Below are positions 16,433-49,935 of a stretch of 49,935 bases of DNA, one piece after another; positions within the stretch are counted from its first letter, which is position 1; the number at the start of each line of letters is the position of its first letter. Made by a program: the position numbers and the translations under genes. The stretch covers positions 1 to 49,935 of the forward strand of contig CABYHL010000008.1 of assembly GCA_902518895.1 (NCBI GenBank). Reading direction: 5' to 3'. The notes under the pieces are model-generated. The model was not told where the DNA came from and ran no database searches. It saw nothing but the letters and a program-made list of their open reading frames with translations. The DNA comes from an uncultured Alphaproteobacteria bacterium. Lineage in GTDB: Bacteria; Pseudomonadota; Alphaproteobacteria; HIMB59; GCA-002718135.

Positions 16433-17530
16433 ATGTTAAGACCGTATCAACAAATTCATAGAAGAAAATCGCGTGTAGTTAAAGTTGGAAATGTAAGTAT
16501 TGGAGGCAGTAATCAAATTGCAGTTCAAACAATGACAAATACTCTGACTTCTAATGCCAAAGATACTATTGCTCAAATAGAAAGATCTGCAAAACTTGGA
16601 GTTGATTTAGTTCGCGTTTCTGTTCCAGATAAAGAGTCTTCACATTCTTTAAAAGAAATTATCAAACATAGCCCTGTACCTATAATTGCTGATATACATT
16701 TTCATTACAAAAGAGGTATTGAAGCAGCAAACAATGGCGCTTCTTGTATTAGAATTAATCCTGGTAATATTGGGAGCATTGAAAGAATAAAAGAAGTTAT
16801 AAAAGCTGCAAAAGATAATAATTGCTCAATTAGAGTAGGTGTTAATGCAGGAAGTTTAGAAAAACAAATTTTAGAAAAATTTTCTGAACCTAATCCAGAA
16901 GCCTTAGTTGAAAGCGCAAAATTAAACATAAAGATACTAGAAGATAATGATTTCACCAATTTCAAAATCAGTGTGAAATCCTCAGATATATTTATGACTA
17001 TAAAAGCATATGAGCAATTAGCTGAATTATGTGATTATCCATTGCATTTAGGTATTACAGAGGCAGGAGGAAAAAGAACAGGTTCAATTAAATCTTCAAT
17101 TGGAGTTGGAAATTTACTTTTGAGAGGAATAGGAGATACAATTAGAATATCATTGTCAGATGAGCCTGAGGAAGAGGTAAGAGTTGGTTTTGAAATCTTA
17201 AAAAGCTTAGGATTAAGGAATAGAGGTGTAAAAATTATATCATGCCCTTCATGTGCTAGACAACAATTTGAAGTAATAAAAACTGTAAAAAACTTAGAAA
17301 AAAAATTAGATGATATTTCTACCCCTATAACAGTGTCAATAATTGGATGTGTCGTTAATGGTCCAGGTGAAGCAACTATGACAAATATTGGAATAACTGG
17401 TGGGGGCAATAATACACATATGATTTATCTTGATGGTAAAAAAAATAACGTTGTAAAAAATGTTGATTTAGAAAATTATCTTGAAGATCTTATTAGAAAA
17501 AAAACTAAAGAAATAGAACTTAGTAATTAA
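16433..17530 (+). CDS. ispG: 4-hydroxy-3-methylbut-2-enyl diphosphate synthase (IspG/GcpE)
   Basis: IspG makes HMBPP from MEcPP, the penultimate step of the non-mevalonate isoprenoid pathway, using a [4Fe-4S] cluster. The 365-residue product shows the TIM-barrel start [44 protein letters not shown] and INPGNIGS. The cluster ligands are in [12 protein letters not shown] and [10 protein letters not shown]. It lacks the extra central domain of plant-type enzymes. The isoprenoid products feed the polyprenyl synthase at 24165-25046 and ubiquinone synthesis (ubiG). It lies 2 bases before hisS. Confidence 0.96.
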
Positions 17531-17531
17531 T

Positions 17532-18776
17532 ATGAAATTAAGACCAGTAAGAGGCACACATGATATATTTGGAGAAGAAATAGATAAATTTAACTTTATT
17601 TCAAATATCGTATCTAAAAATGCTAATTTAAAAGAATATAGAGAAATCCAGACACCAATTTTTGAATTTAGTGATTTATTTGCAAAACCTCTTGGTGAAC
17701 ATTCTGATGTTGTGTTGAAAGAAATGTATTCATTTGAAGACAGAAATAATGAATATTTAACACTACGCCCTGAGTACACAACGCCAATGATTAGAGCAGC
17801 TATTACTAATAATCTTTTAAACGATCTTCCATTAAAAATTTTTGGAATTGGACCGATGTTTAGAAGAGAAAGGCCACAAAAGGGTAGATATAGACAATTT
17901 AATCAAATTAACTTTGAAATACTTGGAACTAGAGATTTTCTTGCTGATGTTGAGTTAATTTCTCTATCAAATAATATTTTAAACGAGCTGTTGCCTAAAT
18001 CTAAAATAAAACTTTATATTAATTCTTTAGGAGATAAAAAAACATTAATTGATTTTAAAAAAAGTCTTACAAAATATTTTAATACCCATAAAAAAAAACT
18101 ATCAGAAGAAAGTATTAAAAAAATTGAAACTAACCCATTAAGAATATTAGATTCAAAAAATGAGGAAGATATAGAAATTTCACTATCTTCACCTAAAATT
18201 TATGAATACTTAACAGATGAAGCTAATAAACACTACGAAGATCTTAAAAGATCGTTAAATATACTAGAAATTGATTTTGAAGAAAACGCTAATCTTGTTA
18301 GAGGTCTTGATTATTATTGTAATACAGTATTCGAATACAAATCAGATAATTTAGGAAGTCAAGATACATTACTAGGTGGTGGAAGATATGATGGTTTAAT
18401 AAAAGTATTAGGTGGGCCTGATATACCCGGTATTGGATGGGCTGCAGGTATTGAAAGAATTGCATTATTAATGGAGTCTGAAAAAAAAATAAGCTCAACT
18501 ATTCATATTGCAGTAACAGATGAAAAATTTACAGATTATTTTCTTTATTTACAAAAATATTTATCTGAGAATAGAATTTCATATTTCTGGAATTATAAAT
18601 ATAATTTAAAAAAATCATTTACAAAAGCAAATACATCTTCAGCATCATATATAATTATTATTGGAGAAAATGAGTTTAATGGTGATTTTTTTACTATTAA
18701 AAATTTAATGACTGGCGAACAAAGAGAATTAAAGCTTAATCAAATATTTAATCATTTGAATGATAAATCTAGATAA
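17532..18776 (+). CDS. hisS: Histidyl-tRNA synthetase
   Basis: This class II synthetase charges tRNA-His. The 414-residue product contains motif 1 ([13 protein letters not shown] and onward), motif 2 [20 protein letters not shown], the His-binding blocks [14 protein letters not shown] and [15 protein letters not shown], and motif 3 [14 protein letters not shown]. The common RPEGT element reads [12 protein letters not shown], with Tyr in place of Gly. Motif 2 keeps the canonical bacterial form [10 protein letters not shown], unlike the divergent enzymes I associate with many Rhizobiales and Caulobacter relatives. It overlaps the prfA start by 17 bases. The anticodon-binding domain (about 325-410) is present but diverged. 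Confidence 0.95.
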
Positions 18777-19836
18777 ACAATTTTCAATAATCTTAGAAAA
18801 ATTTAAATTAATTGAAAATTCATTAAACAATATGAATGATATTGACTCTAACGAATTAATTAAATTAAACAGAGAATATTCAGAGCTTCGACCAATTGTA
18901 GAAAAAATTCAAGAATACAACGATTTACAAAAAGATATATTAAATCTAAATGAGTTAGTAAAAGATAATGATTTAGAAATTAGTAAAATAGCTGAAACGG
19001 AACTCATTGAAAAAAAAAATTATATTAAAGATCTTGAACAGGAATTATTAAAGTTACTAATACCAAAAGATGAAAATGACTCTAAAAATTCAATTTTAGA
19101 AATCAGAGCCGGTACTGGAGGTGATGAAGCATCTCTTTTTGCCTCTGATTTATTAAATATGTATCAGAGATATGCTGATTTAAATTCATGGAAATTTGAT
19201 ATTTTATCAATATCAGAAACAGGTTTAAAAGGCGTGAAGGAGGCTGTTTGCAATATTTCAGGATTAAATGTTTTTTCAAAACTAAAATTTGAATCTGGTG
19301 TGCATAGAGTGCAAAGAGTTCCAACGACTGAAAGTAGTGGAAGAGTACATACATCAGCGGCTACTGTAGCAGTTCTACCTGAAGCTGAAGAGGTTGATAT
19401 TGAAGTTCTTGATAAAGATCTAAGAATTGATGTTTTTAGATCAAGCGGGCCAGGAGGACAATCCGTCAACACTACTGATAGTGCTGTGAGAATAACGCAT
19501 GTTCCAACTGGTATAGTAGTTTCTCAACAAGATGAAAAATCTCAACATAAAAATAAAGCAAAAGCTCTAAAGATTTTACGATCAAGATTACTAGACAATC
19601 AAATACAAGAAAAAAACAAAGAAAGATCTGAACAAAGAAAAAATCAAGTAGGTTCTGGAGATAGATCTGAAAGAATAAGAACCTATAATTTTCCTCAAGG
19701 AAGGGTTTCTGATCATAGAATAAATCTTACATTGTATAATCTGTCAGAAATACTTGAGGGTAAAATAGATGAGTTGATAAATCCTCTAATTGCTGAAGAA
19801 GAGAGTACAAAGTTAGCAAATATGAAAAATGAATAA
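18760..19836 (+). CDS. prfA: Peptide chain release factor 1
   Basis: RF1 ends translation at UAA and UAG. The 358-residue length is standard. Domain 3 carries the GGQ hydrolysis motif (Gly232-Gly233-Gln234, in [18 protein letters not shown]), the target of PrmC methylation, whose gene is next and overlaps by 8 bases. The decoding region reads [19 protein letters not shown], with the RF1-type PxT motif as PTT/PVT-like RVPTTE. The C-terminus has [19 protein letters not shown]. The ATG at 18760 overlaps hisS by 17 bases, giving strong coupling. Both UAA and UAG stops are used by genes in this window. Confidence 0.96.
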
Positions 19837-35925: not shown

Positions 35926-37673
35926 TGTCATTTTTAAAAAATGATCTTGAATTAATAAAATCAAAAATTCTTCTTTCACAAGAAATAGAAAAAAAAACAA
36001 AAGTCATAAAAAAAGGAAAGGATAGTTGGTGTTGTTGCCCATTTCACGATGAAAAAACTCCATCTTGCAAGATAAATGATGATTTGGGTTCTTATTACTG
36101 TTTTGGATGTGGAGCTAAAGGAGATATATTTACAATATATACAGAGCTTTATAATTTTTCATTCCCTGAAGCAGTAAAAGAATTAGCTCAAAGAGTTGGT
36201 ATCAGAATAGTTGATAATTTTGATTCAAATATTAATAAAAAAAATGATAAAATTTATAAAATTTTAGAAATTTCGACAAAATGGTTTCAAGATAATCTAG
36301 AGGTAAATAAAGATTGTCAAAGATATTTAAATAAAAGAAATTTATCAGACGAGACAATTAAATTTTTTAAGTTAGGATTTTCTTCTAATTCAAAACAAAC
36401 ACTTTATCAATTTCTAAAAGAAAAAGGTTTTGAAGATAAAGAACTGCTTGAAAGTAATGTAGTAAAAATTGATAAAAATAATAAGATACGTGATTTTTTT
36501 TATAATAGACTTATTTTCCCAATTGCAAATGAATATGGAAAAATTGTTGGATTTGGAGGAAGAGTATTAGATAATTCAAATCCAAAATATATTAATTCAC
36601 CAGAAAGTGATTTTTTTAAAAAAAGAAATATTTTGTATAATCTTTTTAACGCTAAACAAACCATAAGATCAAAAAAAAATATGTTAATTTGTGAGGGTTA
36701 TATGGATGTAATAAGTTTGTATGACAAAAATATTAAAACAGCTGTAGCTCCACTTGGCACCTCTTTAACTGATAGCCATCTTTTATTATCATGGAAATAT
36801 GTAAATAAACCAACATTAATGTTTGATGGAGATACATCAGGTTTAAAAGCTTCTTTTAAAAGTGCAGTATTGTCGTTACCATACTTAACTCCTTCAAAAT
36901 TATTACAATTTATTATTTTGCCAAATCAATATGATCCTGATACTTTCATAAATAAATATTCTTTAAGTAAATTTGCAACATATTTAAAAAATCCACTTTC
37001 AATTGTAGAATTTATTTTTCAAGAGTCATCAAAATCAATTGATCTCCAAAAATCAGATAATAAAGTTATTTTTGATAATTATATTGATGAATTGGTTGGC
37101 AATATTAAAGATAGTAAAATAAAATATTTTTACGAAAATGAATTTAAATCTTTGTTTTTTCAAAAATTAAAATCATTTTCTTCTAAAAAACAATCAATTA
37201 AAATGACTCCAAAAACGATTTCTTTAAAAGAGAAACAAATATACTCCTTTCTTGCTGCTTATTTGAATCATTCCCAGTTAAGAAAAGAGATTTATTTGCT
37301 GTTGATAGCTTCAGAATTATTAAATGATAACCAGGTTGAGTTCTTAAATTTTTTTCATAAAAATGAGTTTTTAGAGGATAATATAGATAGTATTGATACA
37401 GGTAAGTTTCCAAGTAAATTATCTGAAATTTATAAAAATACCAAGGATAACAGTATATTTCAACTTTTCCCATATTCTAGCCCAAATCATGACTCTGAAG
37501 AAGCAATAAAAGAAATTAGTGAATCTATAAATAATTTGAAGACAAGACTTTCAAATTTGAAAAAAATAAATAAAAGCCTAAATGATATACAAAATAACTC
37601 ATCTTCAATGACATGGGAAGAGTTAAAAAATATCACTTTTGATCTTCATAATAATGAAGAGTTATTAGAGTAA
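35925..37673 (+). CDS. dnaG: DNA primase
   Basis: DnaG lays down RNA primers at the replication fork. From ATG at 35925 (overlapping the upstream TGA by one base) it has 582 residues. The N-terminal zinc-binding domain ([13 protein letters not shown], then [11 protein letters not shown]) precedes a TOPRIM core with [20 protein letters not shown], the acidic [14 protein letters not shown] and [13 protein letters not shown]. The C-terminal 150 residues, where helicase (DnaB) contact occurs, are poorly conserved. It precedes rpoD by 4 bases, recalling the macromolecular synthesis operon. Confidence 0.95.
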
Positions 37674-37677
37674 AACT

Positions 37678-39852
37678 ATGGCAAAAAAGAAGAAAAAAAT
37701 TATTAAGAAAAAAACAACCCCACTTAAAAAGAAAACTTCTAATAAAAAAAAATTAATTAAGAAAAAAACAGTTTCCAAATCTTCCAATAAAACGAAACCA
37801 AAAATTATAAAAAAAACAATAAAAAAGAAAAAATCAATTACAAAAAAAGCATTACTTAAGGTCAAATCCTCAATAAAAGATAAGGCAAAAAAAATTCCAA
37901 AAGCAATTTCTGGCTTTGATGATAAAATAAAAGAAATTTTTACAAAACTTATAAATAAACATAAAGTAGACGGAATTTATACCCAAAAAATAATCGAAAA
38001 AGCCATTCCTAAAAGATACAGATTAGAAGAAAATATTAATAAATTTCAAGATTTTATAATTTCAAACAACATCAAGATTCATACAGAAGAAGAAGCTAAA
38101 GAATTAATTTCTTTAGCTAAAGAACAGACCGCTAAATCTGAAGATGGAAATGAAGAACAAGAAAAAAAACAAACTGGAAAAACAGATGACCCTGTAAGAT
38201 TATATTTGAGAGATATGGGTGCGGTAGAGCTACTTAGTCGAGAAGGTGAAATAGCTATTGCAAAAAGAATTGAAGCTGGCAGAGAAAAAATGATTGGAGC
38301 AATTTCTGAAAGTCCAATGACTATACGATCAATTATCAACTGGAAAGATGCAATAAAAGACGGAACTATGCTTCTAAGAGATATAGTAGATTTAGAGGCT
38401 ACTTACGATATGTCTGATATCTCAGAATCTAAAATTGATGACACACTTCAACTCATAGAAAGTGGTAACGATGAAAAAAATTTAAAAAACAATAATGAGA
38501 AAAATTCTCAAAATAAAGAAGAAAATGATAACGATAACGATAATGATAATGAACAGCAACAAGATGATGATGAAGAGGGATTAAATGTTTCATTAGCTGC
38601 AATGGAAGAAAAATTGAAGCCTAAAGTTCTAAATGACTTTAATGATATAACCAAACTTTTTAAAAAACTTCAAAAGCATAATCAAGAGTTAATTAATGCA
38701 GATAAAAAAAATGAAAAAAATTTTACTACCGTAGAAAAAAAATATCTTAAAATACAGAAAGAGATGATTGCTGCAATGAAAGCTGTGCATTTTAATTCTA
38801 CTACAATTGAAGCACTAATGGAGGCTTTATATGAGTTAAATAAAAAACTTTTACTTCGTGAAGGAAAGATGCTGCGAATGGCAACTAATGCTGGAGTCAA
38901 AAGAGAAGATTTTATATCACAATATTTAAACTTTAATTTTGAAAAAAATTGGATACAATCTCTTTTAGCTACAAAAGACAAAAATTGGGAAAAATTCATT
39001 AATAGAAACCATATTGAAATTAATAAAAATATTGAAGAGATCAAAGAAATTCAAGCTGCTTCAGAATTACCACTTTCAGAATTTAGAAGAATTGTAGGAA
39101 CTGTTCAGCAAGGTGAAAGATCTGCAAATAGAGCAAAGAAAGAAATGATAGAATCAAATCTTAGATTGGTTATATCAATAGCAAAAAAATATACAAATAG
39201 AGGTCTGCAATTTTTAGATTTAATTCAAGAGGGTAATATTGGTCTAATGAAAGCAGTTGATAAATTTGAATATAGAAGGGGTTATAAATTTTCCACTTAT
39301 GCCACATGGTGGATTAGACAAGCTATAACGAGATCAATAGCTGATCAAGCAAGAACAATAAGAATACCTGTTCACATGATAGAAACTATAAATAAAATAG
39401 TTAGAACAACTAGACAAATTATGTCTGAGATAGGAAGAGAACCGACTCCAAATGAATTAGCGGATAGACTACATATGCCGTTAGATAAAGTTAAAAAAGT
39501 TTTAAAAATTGCTAAAGAACCAATTAGTTTAGAAACTCCTGTAGGAGATGAAGAAGATAGTTCTCTTGGTGATTTCATTGAAGATAAAAATGCTCTTATT
39601 CCTATAGATGCAGCAGTAAAAAGTTCTCTGCGTGATACCACAACAAGGATTCTTTCTTCTCTAACTCCAAGAGAAGAAAGAGTTTTAAGAATGCGATTTG
39701 GTATTGGTATGAATAGCGATCATACTTTAGAAGAAGTTGGTCAACAATTTAGTGTTACAAGGGAAAGAATAAGGCAAATTGAAGCTAAAGCCCTTAGAAA
39801 GTTAAAACACCCAACGAGAGCTAGGAAGTTAAAAACATTTCTTGACGAATAA
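37678..39852 (+). CDS. rpoD: RNA polymerase primary sigma factor RpoD
   Basis: The 724-residue product directs RNA polymerase to housekeeping promoters. It opens with a very Lys-rich tail: 31 of the first 65 residues are Lys. A region 1.1-like domain follows (about 73-140, [20 protein letters not shown]). Region 1.2 is [20 protein letters not shown], and the long non-conserved insert includes an acidic Asn/Asp stretch. Regions 2-3 begin at [20 protein letters not shown], with [20 protein letters not shown]. Region 4 ends with the helix-turn-helix [20 protein letters not shown]. Region 2.4/4.2 residues are canonical, so -35/-10 promoters near TTGACA/TATAAT are expected. Its stop overlaps the next ATG by one base. 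Confidence 0.97.
38523..38552 (+). repeat. Short tandem repeat inside rpoD coding Asn-Asp
   Basis: Near-perfect copies of GATAAC/GATAAT in tandem encode an alternating Asn-Asp tract (DNDNDNDN) in the non-conserved insert of sigma-70. The repeat keeps frame, so length changes in multiples of six would be tolerated. Confidence 0.7.
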
Positions 39853-40679
39853 TGAAGCTAACGCTTCTTGGAACTGGATGCCCTTCTGTTGATCATAAAA
39901 GATGCGGTTCATCTAATCTAGTATATTCAAAAAAAAGTAAAATCTTAGTTGATTGTGGTTCAGGGGTAACACAAAGATTAAATCAAAGTGGAAATTCTTC
40001 TGCTGATATTGATGCTTTATTACTTACTCATCTTCATACAGATCATGTTGTAGATTTATATCAACTTATCATTTCCTCCTGGCATTCTGATAGAGATTCA
40101 ATTTGGAAAATATATGGACCTAAAGGTACAAAAAAATTTATAGATAAAATATTTTTAGCTTGGAGAGATGAGCGTATACTGAGAATTAATTATGAAAAGA
40201 GAAAATCTATAAAAGCTCTAAAATACAAAGTTTATGAGTTCAATAAAGAAGGTAATATAAAAATTAATGATATAAAAATTAAATATTTTGAAGTTGATCA
40301 TAAACCAGTTCCTTTTGCTTATGGCTTCTCTTTTTTTAATAATAAAAAAAAATTAACAATTAGTGGTGACACAAGACCATGTGAGAGCTTAATGGTTAAT
40401 GCTCAAAATGCAGATGTTCTTTTACATGAAGTTTTTATTGAATATGAAATGAATAAGACTTCAAAACTTAGAACTAAAAAAACTTTACACAATGTAAAGG
40501 AATATCATACGCCCAGCAATTTAGTTGGGAAGGTAGCAAAATTATCTAATTGTAAAAAACTTGTATTAACTCATTTTGTTCCAACAAAGTTTAATATTTC
40601 AAAACTTAAAAAAATAGTTCGAAAAGACTTTGGAAAAGACCCAATAATTGGAGAAGATTTACTAACTATAAAAATTTAA
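39852..40679 (+). CDS. MBL-fold metal-dependent hydrolase (RNase Z-like)
   Basis: The 275-residue protein begins [20 protein letters not shown] and carries the metal site LLTHLHTDHVVDLYQLI (HxHxDH). Further ligand regions appear as YFEVDHKPVPFAYGF, the Asp in LTISGDTRPCESLM, LLHEVFIEYEM and the final His in LVLTHFVPTKF. This pattern is that of RNase Z and arylsulfatase-like MBL proteins. A tRNA 3'-processing role is possible, although the one tRNA here encodes its CCA. It is coupled to rpoD by TAATG, and its TAA stop shares TTAA with the convergent PanB-like gene. Confidence 0.88.
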   Translation: MKLTLLGTGCPSVDHKRCGSSNLVYSKKSKILVDCGSGVTQRLNQSGNSSADIDALLLTHLHTDHVVDLYQLIISSWHSDRDSIWKIYGPKGTKKFIDKIFLAWRDERILRINYEKRKSIKALKYKVYEFNKEGNIKINDIKIKYFEVDHKPVPFAYGFSFFNNKKKLTISGDTRPCESLMVNAQNADVLLHEVFIEYEMNKTSKLRTKKTLHNVKEYHTPSNLVGKVAKLSNCKKLVLTHFVPTKFNISKLKKIVRKDFGKDPIIGEDLLTIKI

Positions 40680-41503
40680 CCAACTTTATTTAAAAATTTT
40701 TCAAATTCCTCATCTTTAATCTGAACAATATTTGAAGTTGTTGGAAATTTTTTAGTTTTAACGCCATCTATAAAGTTTTTTAGACCTTCTACTGTGTCAT
40801 CTAAAAGTTTTTCATAAGACTTATTTGTATCTTTAAATACTTTTGCATGACGAGGTATTCGATCGGTATTAGTCCCAATTACATCTTGAATAAATAAAAA
40901 CTCAACATCACAATTTGGGCCACTACCCATTGACAATGTCAAAAGATTTACTTTTTTTGTAATTAATTCAGCAACTCGATCAGGGACGCATTCTACTTCT
41001 AGACCAATAGCTCCTGCATTATCATATGCAATAGCATCTTGATAAACTTTAAAAGCTGAGTCAGCATCTTTTCCTACTGCTTTAAAACCTCCGGTCCAAG
41101 TACTTTTATAAGGAATTAATCCAATATGACTTACAGAAGGTAAACCTTCTTTGCGAAGAGCTTCAATATATTTTGGACTATTTCCACAATAAACAGCATC
41201 AGCTCCATTATCTCTAGCAATTAACGCTGCATCTATTGCTTTCTCAGTCGACGAAAGTTGACCAAGACCAAATATCATAAAAGTATTTGGAGCAGCTTCT
41301 CTGATATCTTTTATATGAGCATCTCTGAACCATCTATTTGTTGGCACACCCGTTCTTAGTGTTTCTTTTTTAAAAGATACAATTTGGATATCTATGCCAG
41401 CTTTTTCTGCAGCATAAGCCTCTAATGCATTAGTTACATATAGCTCAGTTAATTTAACTTTTCCCTTTTTCTCAAATAAATCTTTAACAGTTAGTTTAGC
41501 CAT
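40676..41503 (-). CDS. PanB-fold (ketopantoate hydroxymethyltransferase-like) protein
   Basis: From ATG at 41503 it has 275 residues. Its second half aligns by eye with PanB: SHIGLIPYKSTWTGGFKAVG (residues 125-144), IGLEVECVPDRVAELI (167-182), then LTLSMGSGPNCDVEFLFIQD. Glu171 corresponds to the catalytic Glu181 of E. coli PanB. At the PanB metal ligands (Asp45, Asp84, Glu114) this protein reads VSFK (42-45), FGL (78-80) and YCG (105-107), so all three acids seem absent. It is therefore unlikely to make ketopantoate. It lies last in a unit with a family 4 glycosidase (joined TGATG) and an oxygenase. A carbon-carbon lyase acting on the released compound is plausible but unproven. Confidence 0.7.
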   Translation of the reverse strand: MAKLTVKDLFEKKGKVKLTELYVTNALEAYAAEKAGIDIQIVSFKKETLRTGVPTNRWFRDAHIKDIREAAPNTFMIFGLGQLSSTEKAIDAALIARDNGADAVYCGNSPKYIEALRKEGLPSVSHIGLIPYKSTWTGGFKAVGKDADSAFKVYQDAIAYDNAGAIGLEVECVPDRVAELITKKVNLLTLSMGSGPNCDVEFLFIQDVIGTNTDRIPRHAKVFKDTNKSYEKLLDDTVEGLKNFIDGVKTKKFPTTSNIVQIKDEEFEKFLNKVG

Positions 41504-42867
41504 CAATTATATTGAGGTAAATAATTGCCATGTGCTTCAATCATCTTATCTGTCATGCTATAAATTTCATCTATTGTCAGATTAGCTCCTGTTAAAGGAT
41601 CAAGCATTGCAGCATGGTATATGTGTTCTCTTTTTTTTGTTAGAGCAGCTTGTGCAGTTAGTATTTGCACATTAATATTAGTACGCATTAGAGCCGCTAA
41701 TTGTTCTGGTAATTTACCAAACTTTTGAGGTTTATAACCCTTTGAATTAATTATTACAGGTACCTCTACACAGCAATTTGATGGTAAATTTTCAATTAAA
41801 TTATTATTCATAACATTAGCATTGATAGTAATTTCATTATTATTTGCAATTCCATCCATGATAAATGACGCATACTCATTACTTCTTTTAAGAGGCATAT
41901 CATAAATTGGAGTCATATCTTTTTCTAAATCTTTCCAAAGTTTAATATTGCTTTTGCATCTATCAATATACTCTTCTATTGGTATCTTATATTTTTTTAT
42001 AACATCATCTCTATTTTGTTTTATGAACCACGGAACATATTCAGCAAAGTGCTCACTAGATTCTGTTACGAAGTAACCAAATCGTCTAAGAATTTCATAA
42101 CGTACTTTTTCATGAAGCACCTTATTAGATTCATGATCAGTTTTTTTACTTCTTGAAGATATTTCTTCATCATTTACAATTTTATCGGCTAGTTGTTTTA
42201 ATCTAGGATATAAATCTTCGTTTTGATTGCCATTAATTTTCTTTTCAAATTTTTTATAAAAGGCCATATGGTTTATGCCACCACATAGGTAATCAATATC
42301 ATTTATATTTTCATCCAAGTCTTTCGCTAGCATTTCAGCAGTTCCTTGAACAGAGTGACATAGACCCATAGCTTTGATTTCTGGAAAAGCAGTATTTATT
42401 GCAATCATGTTTGAGCACATTGGATTTACGTATTGCAACCAAGTAGCATTAGGACAAATATCCATAATATCTTTTGCGATATCTAGTAAAACAGGAATAG
42501 TTCGTAGACCTCTCATTATTCCACCTATGCCGAGAGTATCTGCTATAGTTTGTCTTAACCCAAACTCATTAGGAATTTTAAAATCTATAACTGTGGATGG
42601 CTCATATCCCCCTACTTGAATTGTTGTTTGAACAAAGTCTGCACCAACTAAAGATTCTCGTCTGTCAGTATGGGAAGTAACTTTCGGTGAAACACTTAAT
42701 TTTTTTGAAATTACATCTATTAAATCATGTGATGCTTTTAATCTTACAGGATCAATATCTTGTAATGCAATCTCCATATTTTTAAATTGCTCAATAGCTA
42801 AAAGATCGGTTACAATTCTTCTTGTAAAAACAGCACTACCAGCTCCAATAATTGTAAGTTTAATCAT
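41503..42867 (-). CDS. Family 4 glycoside hydrolase (alpha-galactosidase/glucosidase MelA-like), copy A
   Basis: The 454-residue product belongs to GH4, whose members cleave glycosides by an NAD+- and Mn2+-dependent oxidation-elimination route. NAD binding is seen in KLTIIGAGSAVFTRRIV. TTIQVGGYEPSTVIDFKIP, GLRQTIADTLGIGGIMRGLR and YVNPM (Asn148) are family blocks. The metal and catalytic residues Cys170-His171 (GLCHSVQGT) and His200 (GGINHMAFY) are intact, as in AglA. The block QTIADTLGIGGI points to the MelA/AglA (alpha-glycoside) branch. No PTS or sugar kinase is nearby, so unphosphorylated substrates are likelier. It overlaps the oxygenase gene by 8 bases. Exact sugar unknown. Confidence 0.88.
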   Translation of the reverse strand: MIKLTIIGAGSAVFTRRIVTDLLAIEQFKNMEIALQDIDPVRLKASHDLIDVISKKLSVSPKVTSHTDRRESLVGADFVQTTIQVGGYEPSTVIDFKIPNEFGLRQTIADTLGIGGIMRGLRTIPVLLDIAKDIMDICPNATWLQYVNPMCSNMIAINTAFPEIKAMGLCHSVQGTAEMLAKDLDENINDIDYLCGGINHMAFYKKFEKKINGNQNEDLYPRLKQLADKIVNDEEISSRSKKTDHESNKVLHEKVRYEILRRFGYFVTESSEHFAEYVPWFIKQNRDDVIKKYKIPIEEYIDRCKSNIKLWKDLEKDMTPIYDMPLKRSNEYASFIMDGIANNNEITINANVMNNNLIENLPSNCCVEVPVIINSKGYKPQKFGKLPEQLAALMRTNINVQILTAQAALTKKREHIYHAAMLDPLTGANLTIDEIYSMTDKMIEAHGNYLPQYN

Positions 42868-43600
42868 TTTGATACTCCATGATTGAATTATGAGGTGCCA
42901 CTTTTAAAGGAGTGTACCTTGCATGTCCAATTTCTTTATAGGGATTATTTGTTTTAGTATTAAAACATACTATTAAAGTTCTTCTTGAGTAATTTGAATT
43001 ATTTGCCTCTGATGAATGTAAAAGATTTGCATGAAAAAAAAGAGCATCGCCTGGATCAGCTTCAATATAAATACATTCGTGTCTTTTTTCTAATTCACAT
43101 ATTCTATCTAAATCTGCTGTTTGCTCGGGAGTATCTGATACTCCGTGTCCTATTCTTCCAACTTTTTGAGATCCTTTTAAAACTTTGAGACAACCATTTT
43201 CTTTTGTAGCCTTATCTAACATTATAAAACAAGATCCCATATCTGGATACAGACATGCATTATGATACCAATAACCATAATCTTGATGCCAATCAAACCC
43301 ACCATCACCTGGTTTTTTCCAAATTACTTTTGAATGATAGTGGTAAACTTCATCTTCAAGGAATTCTTCCATTGGTTTTACAATTCTTTCATTAGTAGAA
43401 AATTTCCCAAATAAATCATTTGAAGGTTCATTCCATAATGTAATATTTAATTTACCTGTAGAACTAAACGTTTCTCTAGCTTGATTTTCTTTCTCAGAAT
43501 TTCTTTCAATAAATTCAGTTAATTTAGATATCTCATCTTCTGAAAAGAGTTTTCTTTTAAGAATGTATCCATTATCTCTGAAATCTTTGAAATCTGACAT
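42860..43600 (-). CDS. Phytanoyl-CoA dioxygenase (PhyH) family 2OG-Fe(II) oxygenase
   Basis: The 246-residue product has the iron triad His105 and Asp107 (FDWHQDYGYW) and His195 (FHANLLHSSEA), with Arg206/207 (YSRRTLIVCF) to bind 2-oxoglutarate. GSCFIMLDKATKENGCLKVL and GSQKVGRIGH are PhyH-type strands. Members hydroxylate varied small molecules, including fatty acyl-CoAs, ectoine and phosphonates. Being first in the unit with GH4 copy A and the PanB-like protein, it probably hydroxylates a substrate of that pathway. A good reverse-strand promoter (43638-43610) precedes it, leaving a very short leader. Confidence 0.88.
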   Translation of the reverse strand: MSDFKDFRDNGYILKRKLFSEDEISKLTEFIERNSEKENQARETFSSTGKLNITLWNEPSNDLFGKFSTNERIVKPMEEFLEDEVYHYHSKVIWKKPGDGGFDWHQDYGYWYHNACLYPDMGSCFIMLDKATKENGCLKVLKGSQKVGRIGHGVSDTPEQTADLDRICELEKRHECIYIEADPGDALFFHANLLHSSEANNSNYSRRTLIVCFNTKTNNPYKEIGHARYTPLKVAPHNSIMEYQND

Positions 43601-43609
43601 ATTAATTTC

Positions 43610-43638
43610 ATGTTAAAAATAAATAATAATATTGTCAA
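43610..43638 (-). promoter_or_regulatory. Promoter of the oxygenase-GH4-PanB-like unit
   Basis: Reading the reverse strand: a perfect TTGACA (43638-43633), 17-base spacer, TAACAT (43615-43610). The start codon is at 43600, giving a leader of only a few bases. The -35 shares bases with the opposing candidate promoter. Confidence 0.5.
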
Positions 43639-43660
43639 ATAATTTAAGGTGTTTAAGAAT
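43632..43660 (+). promoter_or_regulatory. Opposing candidate promoter of GH4 copy B
   Basis: TTGTCA (43632-43637), 17-base spacer, AAGAAT (43655-43660). Transcription would begin near 43667, the A of the start codon, implying a leaderless message. The -10 match is 4 of 6. Confidence 0.3.
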
Positions 43661-43666
43661 AATCTT

Positions 43667-45130
43667 ATGAAAGTATCATTTCTTGGTGCAGGCAGTGTAG
43701 GCTTCACTCAAACCCTTGTTCGAGATATATTAAAAGTTAAAAAACTTCAAAATATAGAAATTTCTCTACACGATATATCTAGAAGTAATTTGTTAATGGT
43801 AGCAGAGTTAATTCAAAAAGATATTAAAGCTAATAATCTTCCAACTAAACTTAGTATTGATCCAATTAGAAAAGAATCAATAAGAAATGCAAAATATATT
43901 ATTAGCTGTGTAAGAGTTGGTGGTTTAGAAGCATTTGAAACTGATATATCAATCCCATTAAAATATGGTATCGATCAATGTGTTGGTGATACTATTTGTG
44001 CTGGTGGCATAATGTACGGTCAACGCAACATCCCAGTCATTCTAGACTTTTGTAAAGATATAAAAAAATATGCAAAAAAAAATGCACTTTTTTTAAATTA
44101 TGCAAATCCTATGGCTATGAATACTTGGGTAGCTAATGAGATTGGTAAAGTTAATACAGTTGGTTTATGTCATGGTGTTCAGGGCGGTGCAAAATTAATT
44201 GAAGACTCATTAAATATTCCATCTGGAAAAATGAAATATTCTTGCAGCGGCATAAATCATATGACTTGGTATTTAGATTTGAATTATAAAGGTAAAAAAA
44301 TAACAAAAGAACAACTTTCTAAATCGTTAAAGAAACATAAAAAATTTTCAAGAGATGAAAAAGTAAGAATAGATGTTCTAGATAAATTCGGATATTTTTC
44401 TACGGAAAGTAATGGCCATTTAAGTGAGTATTTACCATGGTACAGGCGTACTCAAAAAGATGTTAAGAAATGGAGTAGTCTTTCAAATTGGATACATGGC
44501 GAGACCGGTGGCTACTTAAGAGTATGTAATGAAAAGAGAAATTGGTTTGTTGAGGATTACCCAAAATATTTAAAAAACTCTGGAATTAAACTTAAAGATT
44601 ATAAAAGATCAACTGAACATGGAAGTTATATCATTGAAGCAATCGAAACTGGAAAAAAATATAGAGGTCACTTTAATGTTATTAATAAAAAAACAATTTC
44701 TAATTTAGATGATGATTGCGTAATTGAGAGTACAGGATACGTAGATTCAAAAGGTATAAAAATGATTGAAGGAGTAAACTTACCGCTGCAATGTGCTTCT
44801 CTATGCAGTACCTCAATAGATGTTCAAAGAATGGCTGTGAGGGCCGCTGTAAAGGGAGATATTGAATTATTAAAACTTGCTGTGCTACAAGACCCTCTTG
44901 TCAGCTCTGTATGTTCATCAGAGGAAGTTTGGCAAATGGTAGACGAGATGCTTGTTGCACAAGCTCAATGGCTTCCACAATATAAATCTAAAATTAAGAG
45001 TGTTAAAAAGAATCTAAGAAAAATCAAAAATTATAAATATAATAAATCAATTAAAGGATTGACCAAAAAAACAAGACACAATCAACAGAAAAGGTCAGTT
45101 TTAGTCGAAAAAGAGGCATTTAATTTATAA
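43667..45130 (+). CDS. Family 4 glycoside hydrolase, copy B, with basic C-terminal tail
   Basis: From ATG at 43667 (MKVSFLGAGSVGFTQ; a GTG at 43649 adds six residues without support) the product has 487 residues. NAD-binding GAGSVGFT, Asn147 in NYANPMAMNTW, Cys168-His169 in GLCHGVQGG and His198 in GINHMTWYLDL show that the GH4 active site is complete. It is clearly diverged from copy A (for example CVGDTICAGGIMYGQR), so the two probably act on different linkages or anomers. After QWLPQY, where copy A ends, there is a 48-residue extension with 14 Lys and 3 Arg. It is first in the forward unit leading to the ABC importer, 79 bases upstream of the binding-protein gene. Confidence 0.86.
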   Translation: MKVSFLGAGSVGFTQTLVRDILKVKKLQNIEISLHDISRSNLLMVAELIQKDIKANNLPTKLSIDPIRKESIRNAKYIISCVRVGGLEAFETDISIPLKYGIDQCVGDTICAGGIMYGQRNIPVILDFCKDIKKYAKKNALFLNYANPMAMNTWVANEIGKVNTVGLCHGVQGGAKLIEDSLNIPSGKMKYSCSGINHMTWYLDLNYKGKKITKEQLSKSLKKHKKFSRDEKVRIDVLDKFGYFSTESNGHLSEYLPWYRRTQKDVKKWSSLSNWIHGETGGYLRVCNEKRNWFVEDYPKYLKNSGIKLKDYKRSTEHGSYIIEAIETGKKYRGHFNVINKKTISNLDDDCVIESTGYVDSKGIKMIEGVNLPLQCASLCSTSIDVQRMAVRAAVKGDIELLKLAVLQDPLVSSVCSSEEVWQMVDEMLVAQAQWLPQYKSKIKSVKKNLRKIKNYKYNKSIKGLTKKTRHNQQKRSVLVEKEAFNL

Positions 45131-45200
45131 ATTACTCAATCTACTCCTAAATAGTACTTCTCAATAATCTAATTTTATTATAGGTTTTTTTAAATTTAGT

Positions 45201-45205
45201 GGAGG
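45201..45205 (+). promoter_or_regulatory. Strong ribosome-binding site for the binding protein
   Basis: GGAGG, four bases before ATG at 45210. Most starts in this window have no comparable Shine-Dalgarno, so this marks the gene for high translation. Confidence 0.7.
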
Positions 45206-45209
45206 ACAG

Positions 45210-47261
45210 ATGAAAAAAAATAAATTTAGATCCACATTACTTGCTAGCGTAGCATCAGCTACTTTTGCATTAACTAGTACAAATGCATCTGCTAGACCGG
45301 AAGGTGCAATAGCACTTCCATCAGCACCCGCAATTGAAAATATGCAAGAAGTTCAGTTCATTGGAAGAAATGAATTGATGAGCTATCAAGATATTGGAGA
45401 CTTTGAATTTTTATATGAGCCAGAATACATTAGTGCTCTAGTTCAAGAAGGAAAACTACCACCAATTTGGGAACGTTTACCAAAAAGACCTTTAGTTTTT
45501 AATGGAGATGCAATGCCGGATGGTATTGGTCGTTACGGAGGAACTTTTAGACATACAATTGGTGGAAGACCTGAAGGATGGAACTGGACTGCTTCACAAC
45601 ATCAAGGATGGGGTGGAATTAATTATACAGTTCAAGAATGTCTAACAAGAAATGGTCCAATGGTAAGATTAAAAGCTGAAGATTCTTATCCTTTACCAAA
45701 CTTAGCTACTGATTGGGAATGGGATGGAAACAAACTTACTATGAACCTTATTGATGGAGCAAAGTGGTCAGATGGCGATCCATTTGATGCAGAAGATGTT
45801 CGTTTTTGGTGGGAAGATAACGTTCTAGATGAGAATGTTCCAACAAGAATGAATGCAACCACAATGGGAGAAGGGACTTCTTTAGAAGTACTTAGCCCAA
45901 CTCAGATTAGATGGACATTTCCACAAGAGGAACCTAAATTAGTTCTTCACTCCATGGCATATATAAATGGATGCCCTGGACCATCACATTTACTTAAAGA
46001 ACATCACCCTAAATATGGTGGTACGTCTTATGATGATTATGTTCAAGCGTTCCCTGCCGGACGTTTACCGTGGGTTAGCATGGGTGCATGGACTGCTGTT
46101 GAATATAAACAAGACGAGGTAGTAATACTTCGTAGAAATCCATACTATTGGAAAGTTGATAGTAAAGGACAACAACTTCCGTATATGAACGAGATGGTGT
46201 TCCAGTTAAAAACTTGGGGCCAAAGAACGGTTGATACCTTAGCAGGTAACGCTGATTTCTCAAATATGGAGAACGTACCTTTATACTTAGAAGCTGTTAA
46301 AGAGTCTAAGAGTGATGATGCACAAGCTCAACTATCTTTTAGTGGAAGAACTATGGGATATCAACTCGCCATGAACCAAGCAATTGGGTTAGGTGTATTG
46401 GATGATCAAATGGCAGCTATTCGAGATCTAAATAGAAATTTAGAATTCAGAAAAGCTGTTAAGCATGCAATTGATGGTAAAGCATTTGCAAAAGCAATGT
46501 CCAAAGGACCATTTGTGACAGTTTATGCAGGCGGTCTTGCTAGAGATAGTGCTTTCTTTGATGCAGATGCTACTTCATTTTTCCCTTATAATCCAGCAGG
46601 TGCAAATTCTATACTTGATGGATTAGGTCTTATAGATACTGATGGTAACGGAATTCGAAACCTTCCAAATGGAGGCGGAGATCTAGTTATTAATTTAGTT
46701 CAAAATAAAGGCAGTGATAATGAAATGTTGATTGGCGATGGAATGGCAACTATGATGGCTGAAGTTGGTATTAAAATTAATATTAAACCAATGGAAGATA
46801 CTGAGCCAACAAGACAAGCAGGTGAATGGGATTGGTTACTTGTAAGATCTCAACAAGAAATGGCCTTCCCTAATTCGGGTTATTGGTCAGATATGGGTCC
46901 TGTAACTACGTCTTCATTTGATCCTCACTTAGGAACTGATGAACACCCTCAACAACTTCAACCATTTGAGAAAGAAATCGTAAGTATTCTTGAAGAGTGG
47001 AGAGATGGTGTTGAAGGAGCAGAGGCTCAAGCATTAATGTCTCGCTATCAGAAACTATTTACAGAAAATGTTTATATGCCTGGTATAGTTCAATATCCAA
47101 CAGCACTTTTGATAAACAAAAGAATTCAAAACTTAGCTGATGGAATGCCTGTTTTGGCTTATCAATGGGCTGAAGATACAGTTATCCGTGAACAATTCTG
47201 GGTTTATCAATATGATCAGTTAGATGAACTTTTCCCTGGAAGAGTTCCTGGTATTGATTAA
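45210..47261 (+). CDS. ABC importer periplasmic binding protein, family 5 (peptide/alpha-galactoside type)
   Basis: The 683-residue product has a signal peptide ending TNASA (cut before RPEG, about residue 30). The family-5 fold is shown by GRYGGTFRHTIGGRPEGW, LATDWEWDGNKLTMNL, GAKWSDGDPFDAEDVRFWW, LRRNPYYWKVD and NLEFRKAVKHAIDGKAFAKA. At about 680 residues it is longer than DppA or OppA and resembles the large group that includes the alpha-galactoside binder AgpA of Sinorhizobium, which is also encoded near MelA-type glycosidases. With GH4 genes adjacent, a glycoside ligand is more likely than a peptide. Codon use looks less AT-driven than neighbours, and the start has a strong GGAGG, fitting high expression. 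A terminator hairpin follows. Confidence 0.9.
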   Translation: MKKNKFRSTLLASVASATFALTSTNASARPEGAIALPSAPAIENMQEVQFIGRNELMSYQDIGDFEFLYEPEYISALVQEGKLPPIWERLPKRPLVFNGDAMPDGIGRYGGTFRHTIGGRPEGWNWTASQHQGWGGINYTVQECLTRNGPMVRLKAEDSYPLPNLATDWEWDGNKLTMNLIDGAKWSDGDPFDAEDVRFWWEDNVLDENVPTRMNATTMGEGTSLEVLSPTQIRWTFPQEEPKLVLHSMAYINGCPGPSHLLKEHHPKYGGTSYDDYVQAFPAGRLPWVSMGAWTAVEYKQDEVVILRRNPYYWKVDSKGQQLPYMNEMVFQLKTWGQRTVDTLAGNADFSNMENVPLYLEAVKESKSDDAQAQLSFSGRTMGYQLAMNQAIGLGVLDDQMAAIRDLNRNLEFRKAVKHAIDGKAFAKAMSKGPFVTVYAGGLARDSAFFDADATSFFPYNPAGANSILDGLGLIDTDGNGIRNLPNGGGDLVINLVQNKGSDNEMLIGDGMATMMAEVGIKINIKPMEDTEPTRQAGEWDWLLVRSQQEMAFPNSGYWSDMGPVTTSSFDPHLGTDEHPQQLQPFEKEIVSILEEWRDGVEGAEAQALMSRYQKLFTENVYMPGIVQYPTALLINKRIQNLADGMPVLAYQWAEDTVIREQFWVYQYDQLDELFPGRVPGID

Positions 47262-47271
47262 TAAATTTTTT

Positions 47272-47302
47272 AGTAAGGGGCTTAAATAGCCCCTTACTTT
47301 TT
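47272..47302 (+). terminator. Intrinsic terminator or attenuator after the binding-protein gene
   Basis: A perfect 11-base stem AGTAAGGGGCT (47272-47282) pairs with AGCCCCTTACT (47288-47298) around a 5-base loop, followed by TTTT. It starts 10 bases after the stop at 47261 and ends about 8 bases before the permease ATG at 47310. Read-through past a short U-run would give excess binding protein over permease. Confidence 0.8.
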
Positions 47303-47309
47303 AAAAAAA

Positions 47310-48308
47310 ATGCTTTCATTTATATTCAGAAGAATTCTTTATTCAATTCCATTACTGTTCGTAATCAGTATTATAATTTTTTTTATTATTGAATTACCGC
47401 CTGGTGATTATGCAACATGGTATGTTAGCCAAACTAAAGCTTTAGCAAATATCACACAAGAACAAGCTTTAGAACTAACAATAATGTTGAGAGAAAAATA
47501 CGGACTTAATGAACCATTAGTAATAAGATATTTCAATTGGATTAAAAATATTGTTTTAAATTTCGATTTTGGTTTTTCCATGCATTACAACAAACCTGTC
47601 AGTGAAATGTTAGGTGATAGATTACCTCGAACTCTAGTAATAGCATTAATTTGTCATTTTTTTGCTACAACTATAGGTGTTTTTATAGGAATTTATGCTG
47701 CAAAAAATCAAAATAAGTTAGGTGATAATGTAGCTACAATATTCGCTTTTTTAGGAATGACCATTCCACGTTTCTTTCTAGCATTACTAATTATGTATTG
47801 GTTAGCAATTGTTCTAAATTCAGACAACACTGGATCAATGTATTCTCCATACTACGCTGTTCAACCAATGTCTTTTGCAAAACTATGGAATGGCATACTT
47901 CATATTTGGCCAATATTTGTCATCGCAATAATCGGAGGTCTTGCCTACAATATGAGAGTAATGCGTGGAAATTTACTAGATGTAATGCGTATGCAATACA
48001 TTGAAACAGCAAGAGCAAAAGGTTTGTCTGAAAATCAAACATTGTACCGTCATGCAGTACCAAATGCTTTGCATCCCCTTGTAATGTTTCAGGGTATTGC
48101 TTTACCATATATGCTAATGGGAGAACTAGAAGCTGCGATCGTTTTATCTATTCCAACTGCAGGACCACTTTTAGTAGAATCTATTCAAAGACAAGACACT
48201 TATACCACTGCAGCAATTTTATTTTGCTTAACAGTAATATTAATTATTGGAAATATTATTGCTGATATTTTGCTAGCAATTTTAGATCCTCGAGTAAGAC
48301 AGAATTAA
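47310..48308 (+). CDS. ABC importer permease, DppB/AgpB type
   Basis: The 332-residue inner-membrane protein has the DppB/OppB architecture: an N-terminal span (RRILYSIPLLFVISIIIFFI), the family block ELPPGDYATWYV, a periplasmic loop, then five further spans. The EAA coupling loop reads ARAKGLSENQTLYRHAVPNA, which docks on the ATPase. Its ATG lies 12 bases past the terminator stem and lacks a visible Shine-Dalgarno. It works with the second permease (5 bases downstream) and with the binding protein upstream. Confidence 0.93.
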   Translation: MLSFIFRRILYSIPLLFVISIIIFFIIELPPGDYATWYVSQTKALANITQEQALELTIMLREKYGLNEPLVIRYFNWIKNIVLNFDFGFSMHYNKPVSEMLGDRLPRTLVIALICHFFATTIGVFIGIYAAKNQNKLGDNVATIFAFLGMTIPRFFLALLIMYWLAIVLNSDNTGSMYSPYYAVQPMSFAKLWNGILHIWPIFVIAIIGGLAYNMRVMRGNLLDVMRMQYIETARAKGLSENQTLYRHAVPNALHPLVMFQGIALPYMLMGELEAAIVLSIPTAGPLLVESIQRQDTYTTAAILFCLTVILIIGNIIADILLAILDPRVRQN

Positions 48309-48313
48309 ATATT

Positions 48314-49417
48314 ATGGACACAACTTCAAACTTACAAAATTCATATTTTTCACTAGTAAGAAAAAGATTTTTGAAAAATAGAGTTGGAATATTAGGCTTA
48401 ATTTTTGTAGGCTTTCTTATTTTCTCTGCTGTTTTTGCAGATTTTTTATCTCCATATGATCCAGCAGCAAGAGATAGTGATAGAGTTTTTTATCCTCCTC
48501 AGGGAATACATTTCTTTGACGAGGATAATAATTTTTCGTTAAGACCTTTCGCTTATGGTTTTACTGAAGGATTTGATCCTGACACATATCTTCCAATAAT
48601 GGAGATTGATTATACACAAAAAAACTATCTTTATTTTTTTACTAGAGGATGGGAATATAAGTTTCTAGGCTTAAATTTGGACTTACATTTATTTACTACT
48701 AAAGACGGGTCTAAAGTTTTTTTTATTGGATCAGACGCCTATGGAAGGGATATGTTATCAAGAATTTTTAAGGGAAGTAGGGTAACGCTTTTATTCGCTC
48801 TCATAGTTGTAAGTATAACAACTTTTATTGGTATTTTAGTTGGAATTAGCTCAGGTTATTTTTCTGGAAAATTTGATATAGCTTCACAAAGAGTTACGGA
48901 ACTTGCTTTAGCTTTTCCAGATCTACCTTTGTATTTATCCTTGGTAGCAATTCTTCCAAGGCAAATGGATCCATTTCTGATTTTTATCTTTATGGCATTT
49001 ATTTTATCCTCTTTACGGTGGGCTCAACTATCAAGAGAGGTCCGGGGAAAAACCCTTTCTTTAAGAAGATTAGACTATATTAAAGCAGCTGAAGCTTTAG
49101 GCTCCAATGATCTAAGAATTATTTATAGACATCTACTTCCTAATGTAACAAGTCACGTTATAGTAAGTGTTTCTTTATTGATACCTTCTGTAATTTTGAC
49201 AGAAAGTTTTTTTAGCTTTTTAGGTTTAGGCATTCAATCTCCATTTGTTAGTTGGGGTCTTCAATTAAATTCTGCTCAAGATATGCGAACAATTGGAAGT
49301 TATCCATGGGTTTTAAGTCCTGTCTTTGCAATCTTAATTTCAGTTTTAGGATTTAATGCTCTTGGTGATGCTTTACGCGATGCAATTGATCCATATGCAA
49401 CAACAACAAAAAAATAA
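48314..49417 (+). CDS. ABC importer permease, DppC/AgpC type
   Basis: The 367-residue protein has a DppC-type start (VRKRFLKNRVGILGLIFVGF) and a long periplasmic insert between spans 1 and 2 (about 55-145, with YPPQGIHFFDEDNNFSLRPF). GSDAYGRDMLSRIFKGSRVT precedes the core spans, and the EAA loop reads IKAAEALGSNDLRIIYRHLL. The insert makes it longer than DppC and resembles permeases paired with large family-5 binding proteins. The stop TAA overlaps the ATPase ATG by one base (TAATG). Confidence 0.92.
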   Translation: MDTTSNLQNSYFSLVRKRFLKNRVGILGLIFVGFLIFSAVFADFLSPYDPAARDSDRVFYPPQGIHFFDEDNNFSLRPFAYGFTEGFDPDTYLPIMEIDYTQKNYLYFFTRGWEYKFLGLNLDLHLFTTKDGSKVFFIGSDAYGRDMLSRIFKGSRVTLLFALIVVSITTFIGILVGISSGYFSGKFDIASQRVTELALAFPDLPLYLSLVAILPRQMDPFLIFIFMAFILSSLRWAQLSREVRGKTLSLRRLDYIKAAEALGSNDLRIIYRHLLPNVTSHVIVSVSLLIPSVILTESFFSFLGLGIQSPFVSWGLQLNSAQDMRTIGSYPWVLSPVFAILISVLGFNALGDALRDAIDPYATTTKK

Positions 49418-49935
49418 TGACCAATCTTGTTGAAATTGAAAATCTTCAAGTAAAGTTTAATACAGATAGTGGTGAAGTAAATGCAGTGAATGGCATATCC
49501 TTTAATATTAAAAAGGGTGAAACATTAGCACTAGTAGGAGAGAGTGGTTCTGGTAAATCTGTTACTGCTAGAGGAATTATTCGATTACTTGCAGAAAATG
49601 CAATTATATCTGATCAAACATCAATAAAGTTTAATGGTACAAATATAAATTCTTATTCTGAAAAAGAGTATCAAAATATTAGAGGAAAAAATATTTCAAT
49701 GATTTTTCAAGAACCAATGAGTTCTTTAAATCCAATATATACAATTGAAAACCAAATTAGTGAGGTTTTAAAAATTCATGGAAAATTTTCAGATAAAGAA
49801 CTCAAAGAAAAATGTCTTGAATTACTAAAACAAGTTCAAATTCCAGAACCAGAGTCTAGATTATCACAGTATCCACATCAATTGTCAGGAGGACAAAGAC
49901 AAAGAATTATGATTGCTATCGCCATAGCTAATAAT
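49417..49935 (+). CDS. ABC importer ATP-binding protein, DppD type (cut by window edge)
   Basis: ATG at 49417 opens 173 codons to the right edge. The product shows Walker A LVGESGSGKSVTARGIIRLL, the Q-loop IFQEPMSSLNPIYTIENQI and the ABC signature QLSGGQRQRIMIAIAIANN; Walker B would follow immediately beyond the window. This is the DppD/OppD class that energises family-5 importers, usually partnered by a DppF-type protein, whose gene may be just downstream. Confidence 0.93.
   Translation, partial: MTNLVEIENLQVKFNTDSGEVNAVNGISFNIKKGETLALVGESGSGKSVTARGIIRLLAENAIISDQTSIKFNGTNINSYSEKEYQNIRGKNISMIFQEPMSSLNPIYTIENQISEVLKIHGKFSDKELKEKCLELLKQVQIPEPESRLSQYPHQLSGGQRQRIMIAIAIANN

Follow-up and report, generated by a model that had tools for sequence, protein, structure and literature searches.

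Sugar uptake systems for alpha-galactosides are well described in the rhizobia. In S. meliloti, melA and the genes downstream of it are required for the alpha-galactosides melibiose and raffinose (available text of PMC4254191), and the Agrobacterium mel uptake gene handles melibiose, galactinol, raffinose and stachyose (PMC6683767, in the part accessible to us). Oxidative removal of methyl groups forms a second strand of relevant work: a layout of regulator and TIM-barrel genes has been described around mocDEF of O-methyl-inosamine catabolism (PMC3538637, in excerpt), and in marine Flavobacteriia a P450 oxidatively demethylates 6-O-methyl-galactose to galactose and formaldehyde (PMC10033563, in excerpt). 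Here we analyse a gene cluster at the right-hand end of contig CABYHL010000008.1 (assembly GCA_902518895.1) of an uncultured alphaproteobacterium; the whole stretch of 49,935 nucleotides is referred to as the window. The cluster comprises two divergent units. A PhyH-family oxygenase, a glycoside hydrolase family 4 (GH4) enzyme (GH4a) and a relative of PanB (PanB-like) run leftward, and a second GH4 enzyme (GH4b), a binding protein, two permeases and an ATPase of a family-5 ATP-binding cassette (ABC) importer run rightward. The genome likely belongs, by inference, to AEGEAN-169/HIMB59, some members of which are reported to have galactose, raffinose, stachyose and melibiose transporters and galKMT (PMC10308909, as far as its available text goes).

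In our view the cluster probably combines a marine version of the rhizobial mel/agp operon with an oxidative module: alpha-galactoside import and cleavage would stand alongside a functional pair of PanB-like protein and oxygenase. The core, consisting of GH4, binding protein, two permeases, double ATPase and GH4, corresponds by homology to the rhizobial mel/agp alpha-galactoside operon and is already known; what is new here is the set of extras, namely PhyH, the PanB-like gene and a flavin-halogenase-family gene.

The assignment of the core begins with the 683-residue binding protein. It matches 6EPY, a periplasmic alpha-galactoside-binding protein, with 597.7 bits over residues 37–681, the next distinct solved sequence scoring 94.6 bits, and is by homology related to Agrobacterium MelB over the full length. 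The two GH4 enzymes score above the cut-off for the MelA-type alpha-galactosidase model NF011657; the CHSVQ motif of GH4a recurs in 65 of 65 homologues and the CHGVQ motif of GH4b in 77 of 82, the pattern search not finding it in the other 5. Both rhizobial plasmids inspected have the order AraC–GH4–binding protein–permease–permease–ATPase–GH4. We collected 80 GH4b loci, the best 80 among the matches listed from genome records, several of them short; 11 belong to close relatives (records named AG-..., presumed to come from single marine cells), leaving 69 others. We recognised a complete transporter in all 11 close relatives and in 55 of the 69 others, with GH4a at the same locus in all 11 and in 51 of those 55. 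Because the binding protein, permeases, ATPase and both GH4 enzymes are of mel/agp type, the substrate class is not blank, and the original prediction, which had left the glycosylated substrate unidentified, needs amending on this point. Its proposed first steps, glycoside import and GH4 cleavage, agree with the homology to mel/agp, and import and cleavage of alpha-galactosides is a well-supported prediction for the cluster. The binding protein would bind an alpha-galactoside on the periplasmic side, and import would run through the two permeases and double ATPase, as the strong homology suggests; the two GH4 enzymes would then cut it in the cytoplasm and galactose would pass to a galactokinase. 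A sugar kinase had seemed to be missing, but a galactokinase gene lies elsewhere in the window's genome (C1:79788), and, counting this genome, 11 of 13 in the order have a galactokinase above the cut-off.

The eight genes have identical order and orientation in all 11 close relatives fetched, each of which has PanB-like, GH4, PhyH, GH4 and transporter genes together with the halogenase-family gene. For this reason the cluster is more than a chance grouping. The divergent, conserved arrangement had been put forward from the window alone, with the proviso that genes failing to co-occur would make it fortuitous; they co-occur in every one of the 11, which were fetched by GH4b. At 80% identity or more, 19 of the 37 genomes of the genus, which are incomplete assemblies, yielded the PanB-like gene, as against none of the 24 sister-family genomes searched. 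The 69 other GH4b loci yielded neither PhyH (at least 40% identity) nor PanB-like genes (at least 35%), and more distant PhyH genes adjoin GH4b in L021 and L023, both from deltaproteobacterial metagenome-assembled genomes (MAGs). The gene combination is lineage-specific.

Thirteen additional loci reveal how the cluster varies. The window arrangement is present as far as fetched in three of them (L167, and L173 and L175 with an extra desaturase), whereas L168 has a second version of the transporter, 43–59% identical, and a relocated halogenase gene. Four loci termed type 3 (L164, L169, L172 and L174, recognised from sequence, with a Pfam check in L169 only) carry a family-1 sugar ABC system and are without GH4b, family-5 transporter and halogenase gene. 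L170 has two PhyH genes and GH4b up to the contig end, the contigs of L163, L165 and L171 run out within GH4a or after it, and L166 has the PanB-like gene without GH4a. Since they are retained across these variants, GH4a and the PanB-like gene form the constant part of the cluster. In relatives L013 and L014, GH4a is just 77–78% identical to that of the window and the binding protein and permeases are 91–100% identical, a mosaic that suggests recombination within the cluster. A second family-5 transporter, whose binding protein is 43% identical, occupies the same site beside the same left-hand genes in L015–L020 and L168. Further PhyH genes (L014 18912–19745; L167 3159–3980 and 6412–7245) lie to the right of the halogenase gene and beside a class II aldolase.

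A simpler account would be a plain mel/agp operon for ordinary alpha-galactosides, with PhyH, the PanB-like gene and the halogenase as mere neighbours that serve something else. The rhizobial operon does function without such extras (available text of PMC4254191), and in a class-wide sample the halogenase family and GH4b-like genes coincide in one genome only. We nevertheless judge this account unlikely, given that the extras are in place in all 11 close relatives, in a genus whose assemblies, although incomplete, measure 0.9–1.6 Mb, that the genes overlap by a few bases, and that the GH4a–PanB-like pair is kept where the transporter differs.

PanB, the ketopantoate hydroxymethyltransferase, is an aldol-type enzyme that carries a one-carbon unit from methylene-tetrahydrofolate. 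We take its Asp45, Asp84 and Glu114 to be metal ligands, which together with Lys112 presumably hold Mg and the 2-oxo acid. The window's PanB-like protein falls short of the PanB equivalog cut-off (106.4 of 207.55 bits). Aligned with the PanB of E. coli and the true PanB encoded by its own genome, the protein has Phe, Gly, Gly and Tyr at Asp45, Asp84, Glu114 and Lys112, in line with the earlier observation that the metal ligands are missing. We aligned 63 distinct homologues, the window gene included, to E. coli PanB; 56 of them are without the VGDS motif. None of the 56 carries Lys112 or Glu114, the exceptions elsewhere being L131, with Asp at 84, and L119, with Asp at column 45 in a different context; all 56 retain His136, Gly138 and Glu181 and have Glu179. 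Two of the seven VGDS homologues, including the same-genome true PanB, keep all ligands, and five are changed at 84 and 114 and have Glu179. A tree of 44 sequences, with rows trimmed to the matching part, splits 37 PanB-like rows from 7 VGDS rows with support of 100/100. Without Asp45, Asp84, Lys112 and Glu114, the PanB-like protein should therefore not chelate a 2-oxo acid as PanB does. A model of the PanB-like structure based on 12 close sequences was discarded (mean pLDDT, predicted local distance difference test, 38.1).

What the PanB-like gene travels with points to an oxygenase partner. In 17 genomes hand-chosen from 61 (37 genus and 24 sister-family), 48 of 55 PanB-like genes have a PhyH or FA_desaturase (MocD-like) gene no more than 1.5 kb away, where about 2.0 would be expected from gene density. 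Canonical PanB in the same genomes, a control for which weak matches of about 30% identity were accepted as canonical, is near such a gene in 0 of 9 cases. Outside the order we inspected 22 PanB-like loci, among them 8 plasmid loci (L008, L009 and L176–L181) chosen on rank, organism or identity before we had looked at the genes around them. An oxygenase gene lies within 4 kb in 14 (FA_desaturase 7, PhyH 3, sterol-desaturase type 3, Rieske 1), and two further loci have only a ferredoxin or a ferredoxin and reductase; most of the oxygenase assignments come from our own profiles or single seeds, with Pfam checks at six loci (L140–L142, L145, L153 for the ferredoxin, and L178). On the best tree of the 37 PanB-like rows, 29 of them labelled, the oxygenase partner class needs at least six changes. 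Counting just the well-supported branches lowers the required number, to 3 for PhyH and 2 for desaturase. Two loci that carry a PhyH and a desaturase gene, L101 and L107, were labelled PhyH. In Rhizobium the PanB-like gene comes after mocDEF-like genes, and the layout of L008 agrees with the mocDEF neighbourhood as given in the available part of PMC3538637. Other surroundings are of different kinds: an IolC-like PfkB+DUF2090 protein in L153 and an inositol oxygenase family gene in L180 are inositol-type, and NanE, ROK and BNR genes of sialic-acid type surround the PanB-like gene in L106 (486–16544). The original suggestion that PhyH and the PanB-like protein belong together is thus upheld by the 48 of 55 genes, and that the PanB-like protein works with an oxygenase is, from gene linkage, very likely. 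Two tandem PanB-like genes occur with three PhyH genes in L106 and with two in L108. In L152 and L155 a VGDS-type PanB paralogue sits in what by eye appears to be a TRAP transporter unit, with PhyH 3–3.5 kb away.

For the oxidative part, PhyH, in some relatives with a MocD-like desaturase, would oxidise a group attached to the sugar or aglycone, and the product released by the oxidation would be the substrate of the PanB-like protein. Tentatively, this step may remove O-methyl groups from methylated galactosides by oxidation; the PanB-like protein would then hand over the one-carbon unit, perhaps to tetrahydrofolate. We raise this possibility because O-demethylation would give formaldehyde, the one plausible product that the different oxygenases and unrelated sugars have in common. 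Extended to the whole clade, it would make the PanB-like proteins an unrecognised enzyme family that takes a one-carbon unit from oxygenase O-demethylation of sugars, a portable module with interchangeable oxygenases (PhyH, MocD-type desaturase, sterol-desaturase type and Rieske); we regard this generalisation as speculative and somewhat doubtful. The purU gene lies within 4 kb of the PanB-like gene in 4 of the 22 outside-order loci (L009, L153, L176 and L181), which agrees with the one-carbon idea.

Several observations weigh against the joined operon or its one-carbon extension. No AraC-type activator was found among open reading frames of at least 120 amino acids at 36000–49935, or among genes of at least 100 amino acids in L010. 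Seven of the 55 PanB-like genes have no oxygenase within 1.5 kb, two of them (G018 and G022) near contig ends, and 6 of the 22 outside-order loci have neither oxygenase nor ferredoxin within 4 kb, two of these less than 1 kb from a contig end. VGDS-type PanB paralogues have such neighbours in 3 of 7 cases (two PhyH genes more than 3 kb off and one opposite-strand desaturase). In the four type 3 loci the GH4a–PanB-like pair persists without an adjoining PhyH, although three have one farther along. PurU is above the cut-off in none of the 13 genomes of the order, which counts against simple transfer, and we dropped it for the window as a general PanB-like partner. Finally, oxygenases do much besides demethylation, and the sugar-acid genes beside some PanB-like copies fit other chemistry.

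That other chemistry could be the route first proposed for this locus, in which the glycoside is cleaved, the aglycone is hydroxylated by PhyH and an aldolase-type reaction of the PanB-like protein finally splits the product. PanB is itself aldol-type; His136 and Glu181 are retained in the PanB-like protein and, with its Glu at 179, could make up another site, the candidate residues being His126, Glu169 and Glu171 in window numbering; and lactonase and sugar-acid dehydratase genes lie near the PanB-like copy in L102. The residues that in PanB are taken to hold Mg and the 2-oxo acid are nonetheless lost throughout the clade, and the same clade is tied to inositol-type, sialic-acid-type and sugar-acid genes without a common aglycone. 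Carbon–carbon cleavage by the PanB-like protein is accordingly not supported, though a different chemistry is possible, and the aglycone route is improbable. Equally hard to credit is scavenging of a compatible solute that the extras modify rather than degrade: red algae and phytoplankton do make alpha-galactosides of this sort, floridoside or galactosylglycerol for example, and the PhyH family has a relative in ectoine hydroxylase (TIGR02408 3.4e-17, 62.7 bits, far under its cut-off of 336.5), but two hydrolases and a galactokinase indicate catabolism.

In its relatives the cluster has a further component, beyond the genes seen in the window. The original prediction had pointed to the genes right of 49935, which it could not see; in the nearest relatives these are the rest of the ATPase and then the halogenase-family gene. 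In L010 the ATPase has 540 amino acids and two ATPase domains and is followed, with a 1-base overlap, by a 508-residue Trp_halogenase-family protein (17391–18917), and in the nearest relatives generally this gene follows the ATPase, that is, just past the end of the window's contig. In L015–L020 it is placed between GH4b and the binding protein instead. No halogenase-family gene was found in the window's own genome, where the contig stops before the expected place. It is present in all 11 close relatives and, at 42% identity or more, in 17 of the 69 other GH4b loci, three of these partly covered. In the order it occurs as a single copy in 7 of the 17 chosen genomes, always on the same contig as and less than 10 kb from this PanB-like gene, and was not found in the other 10. 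An alignment of 28 sequences, one of them the L010 query repeated, has the Lys in 26 (2 gaps) and WxWxIP and Glu in all 28; we take these to be the catalytic residues of flavin-dependent halogenases, and the protein is accordingly a candidate member with the residues expected of one. In a class-wide sample of 289 genomes the halogenase occurs in 12 (E at most 1e-60) and GH4b-like genes in 9, with both only in G194, and the other class-wide copies are 32–36% identical. A general partnership of halogenase and GH4b is rejected on this overlap of one genome, and the link is therefore specific to this GH4b type. The deltaproteobacterial MAG locus L021 combines two PhyH genes, GH4b, transporter, GH4a and the same halogenase-family gene (Pfam-checked). 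The gene is also seen at GH4b loci of Devosia, Kaistia and one deltaproteobacterial MAG.

All eight reading frames were recovered where they had originally been placed, and Pfam assigns a family to every protein (Table 1). The ends of the leftward genes PhyH, GH4a and PanB-like overlap by a few bases, and the mechanical reading frame of the PanB-like gene begins one codon upstream, at 41506. That of GH4b opens at GTG 43649, but ATG 43667 is the probable start: five relatives (L013, L014, L167, L173 and L175) have a 487-residue GH4b from the corresponding ATG. Because relatives use this ATG and share a conserved spacer, a start at GTG is unlikely, and the spacer likely measures the 66 bases first given for it, provided that GH4b begins at 43667. 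The PhyH protein has HQD at residues 105–107 and later His residues including H195, in keeping with the HxD...H pattern and with its family profile. An RNase-Z-like metallo-hydrolase gene at 39852–40676 scores under the equivalog cut-offs; it is a fixed neighbour of the PanB-like gene in all 11 close relatives, and adjoins the GH4a–PanB-like pair in 12 of the 13 further loci.

Table 1. Features of the divergent cluster, in window positions
Feature	Position	Strand	Evidence
PanB-like protein, 275 aa	40676..41503	-	Pfam Pantoate_transf 8.9e-38
GH4a, GH4 glycosidase, CHSVQ motif, alpha-galactosidase subfamily	41503..42867	-	NF011657 584.4 bits (cut-off 486)
PhyH-family Fe(II)/2-oxoglutarate oxygenase	42860..43600	-	Pfam PhyH 1.2e-32
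Divergent spacer, 66 bases (if GH4b starts at 43667), with TTGTCA-containing stretch	43601..43666	.	Conserved in 11-sequence alignment
GH4b, GH4 glycosidase, CHGVQ motif	43667..45130	+	NF011657 542.3 bits (cut-off 486)
Periplasmic family-5 binding protein, MelB/AgpA type, 683 aa	45210..47261	+	6EPY match
ABC permease B	47310..48308	+	Pfam
ABC permease C	48314..49417	+	Pfam
ABC ATPase, truncated by contig end at 49935	49417..49935	+	Open reading frame; full length seen in L010

With the core, an ABC system from a streamlined lineage of the ocean, likely AEGEAN-169/HIMB59, gains a concrete substrate class, and the PanB-like/oxygenase pair flags an enzyme family annotated as vitamin biosynthesis that probably has a different role. 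If the one-carbon idea holds, abundant marine bacteria would attach a module to various sugar pathways, here that of alpha-galactosides, and so use methylated sugars of dissolved organic matter. Literature searches for the gene combination gave no paper on it among the titles listed; the PanB-like/oxygenase pair was not searched by name.

The locus can be compared with several described systems. With PanB, the PanB-like protein shares its Pfam family over nearly the full length and retains His136 and Glu181, yet it is without the Mg ligands and Lys112, misses the equivalog score and forms a separate clade. The P450 demethylation of 6-O-methyl-D-galactose in marine Flavobacteriia is a possible parallel for oxidative methyl removal from galactose in the sea, but its oxygenase is unrelated and the available text of PMC10033563 mentions no PanB-like protein. 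The mocDEF module for the rhizopine 3-O-methyl-scyllo-inosamine is tied to the locus in two ways: in L008, L009 and L176 the mocDEF-like genes are followed by a PanB-like gene from the same clade, and a desaturase of the MocD kind, by itself, lies within this cluster in relatives L013, L014, L173 and L175. The window has PhyH instead of MocD and a galactoside rather than inositol context, and neither MocD-type desaturase nor MocE ferredoxin nor reductase was found among the open reading frames and Pfam matches of its cluster. The rhizobial mel/agp operon (agpT-melA-agp of S. meliloti; mel of Agrobacterium) shares with the locus its binding protein, two permeases, ATPase and both types of GH4, with component identities to the window of 41–58% in S. 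meliloti L075 and in L006 and L007, and the order GH4b–binding protein–permease–permease–ATPase in common. The window differs in being without the AraC activator and in placing GH4a in a divergent unit with PhyH and the PanB-like gene, and its relatives, like 17 of the 69 other GH4b loci, have added the halogenase-family gene.

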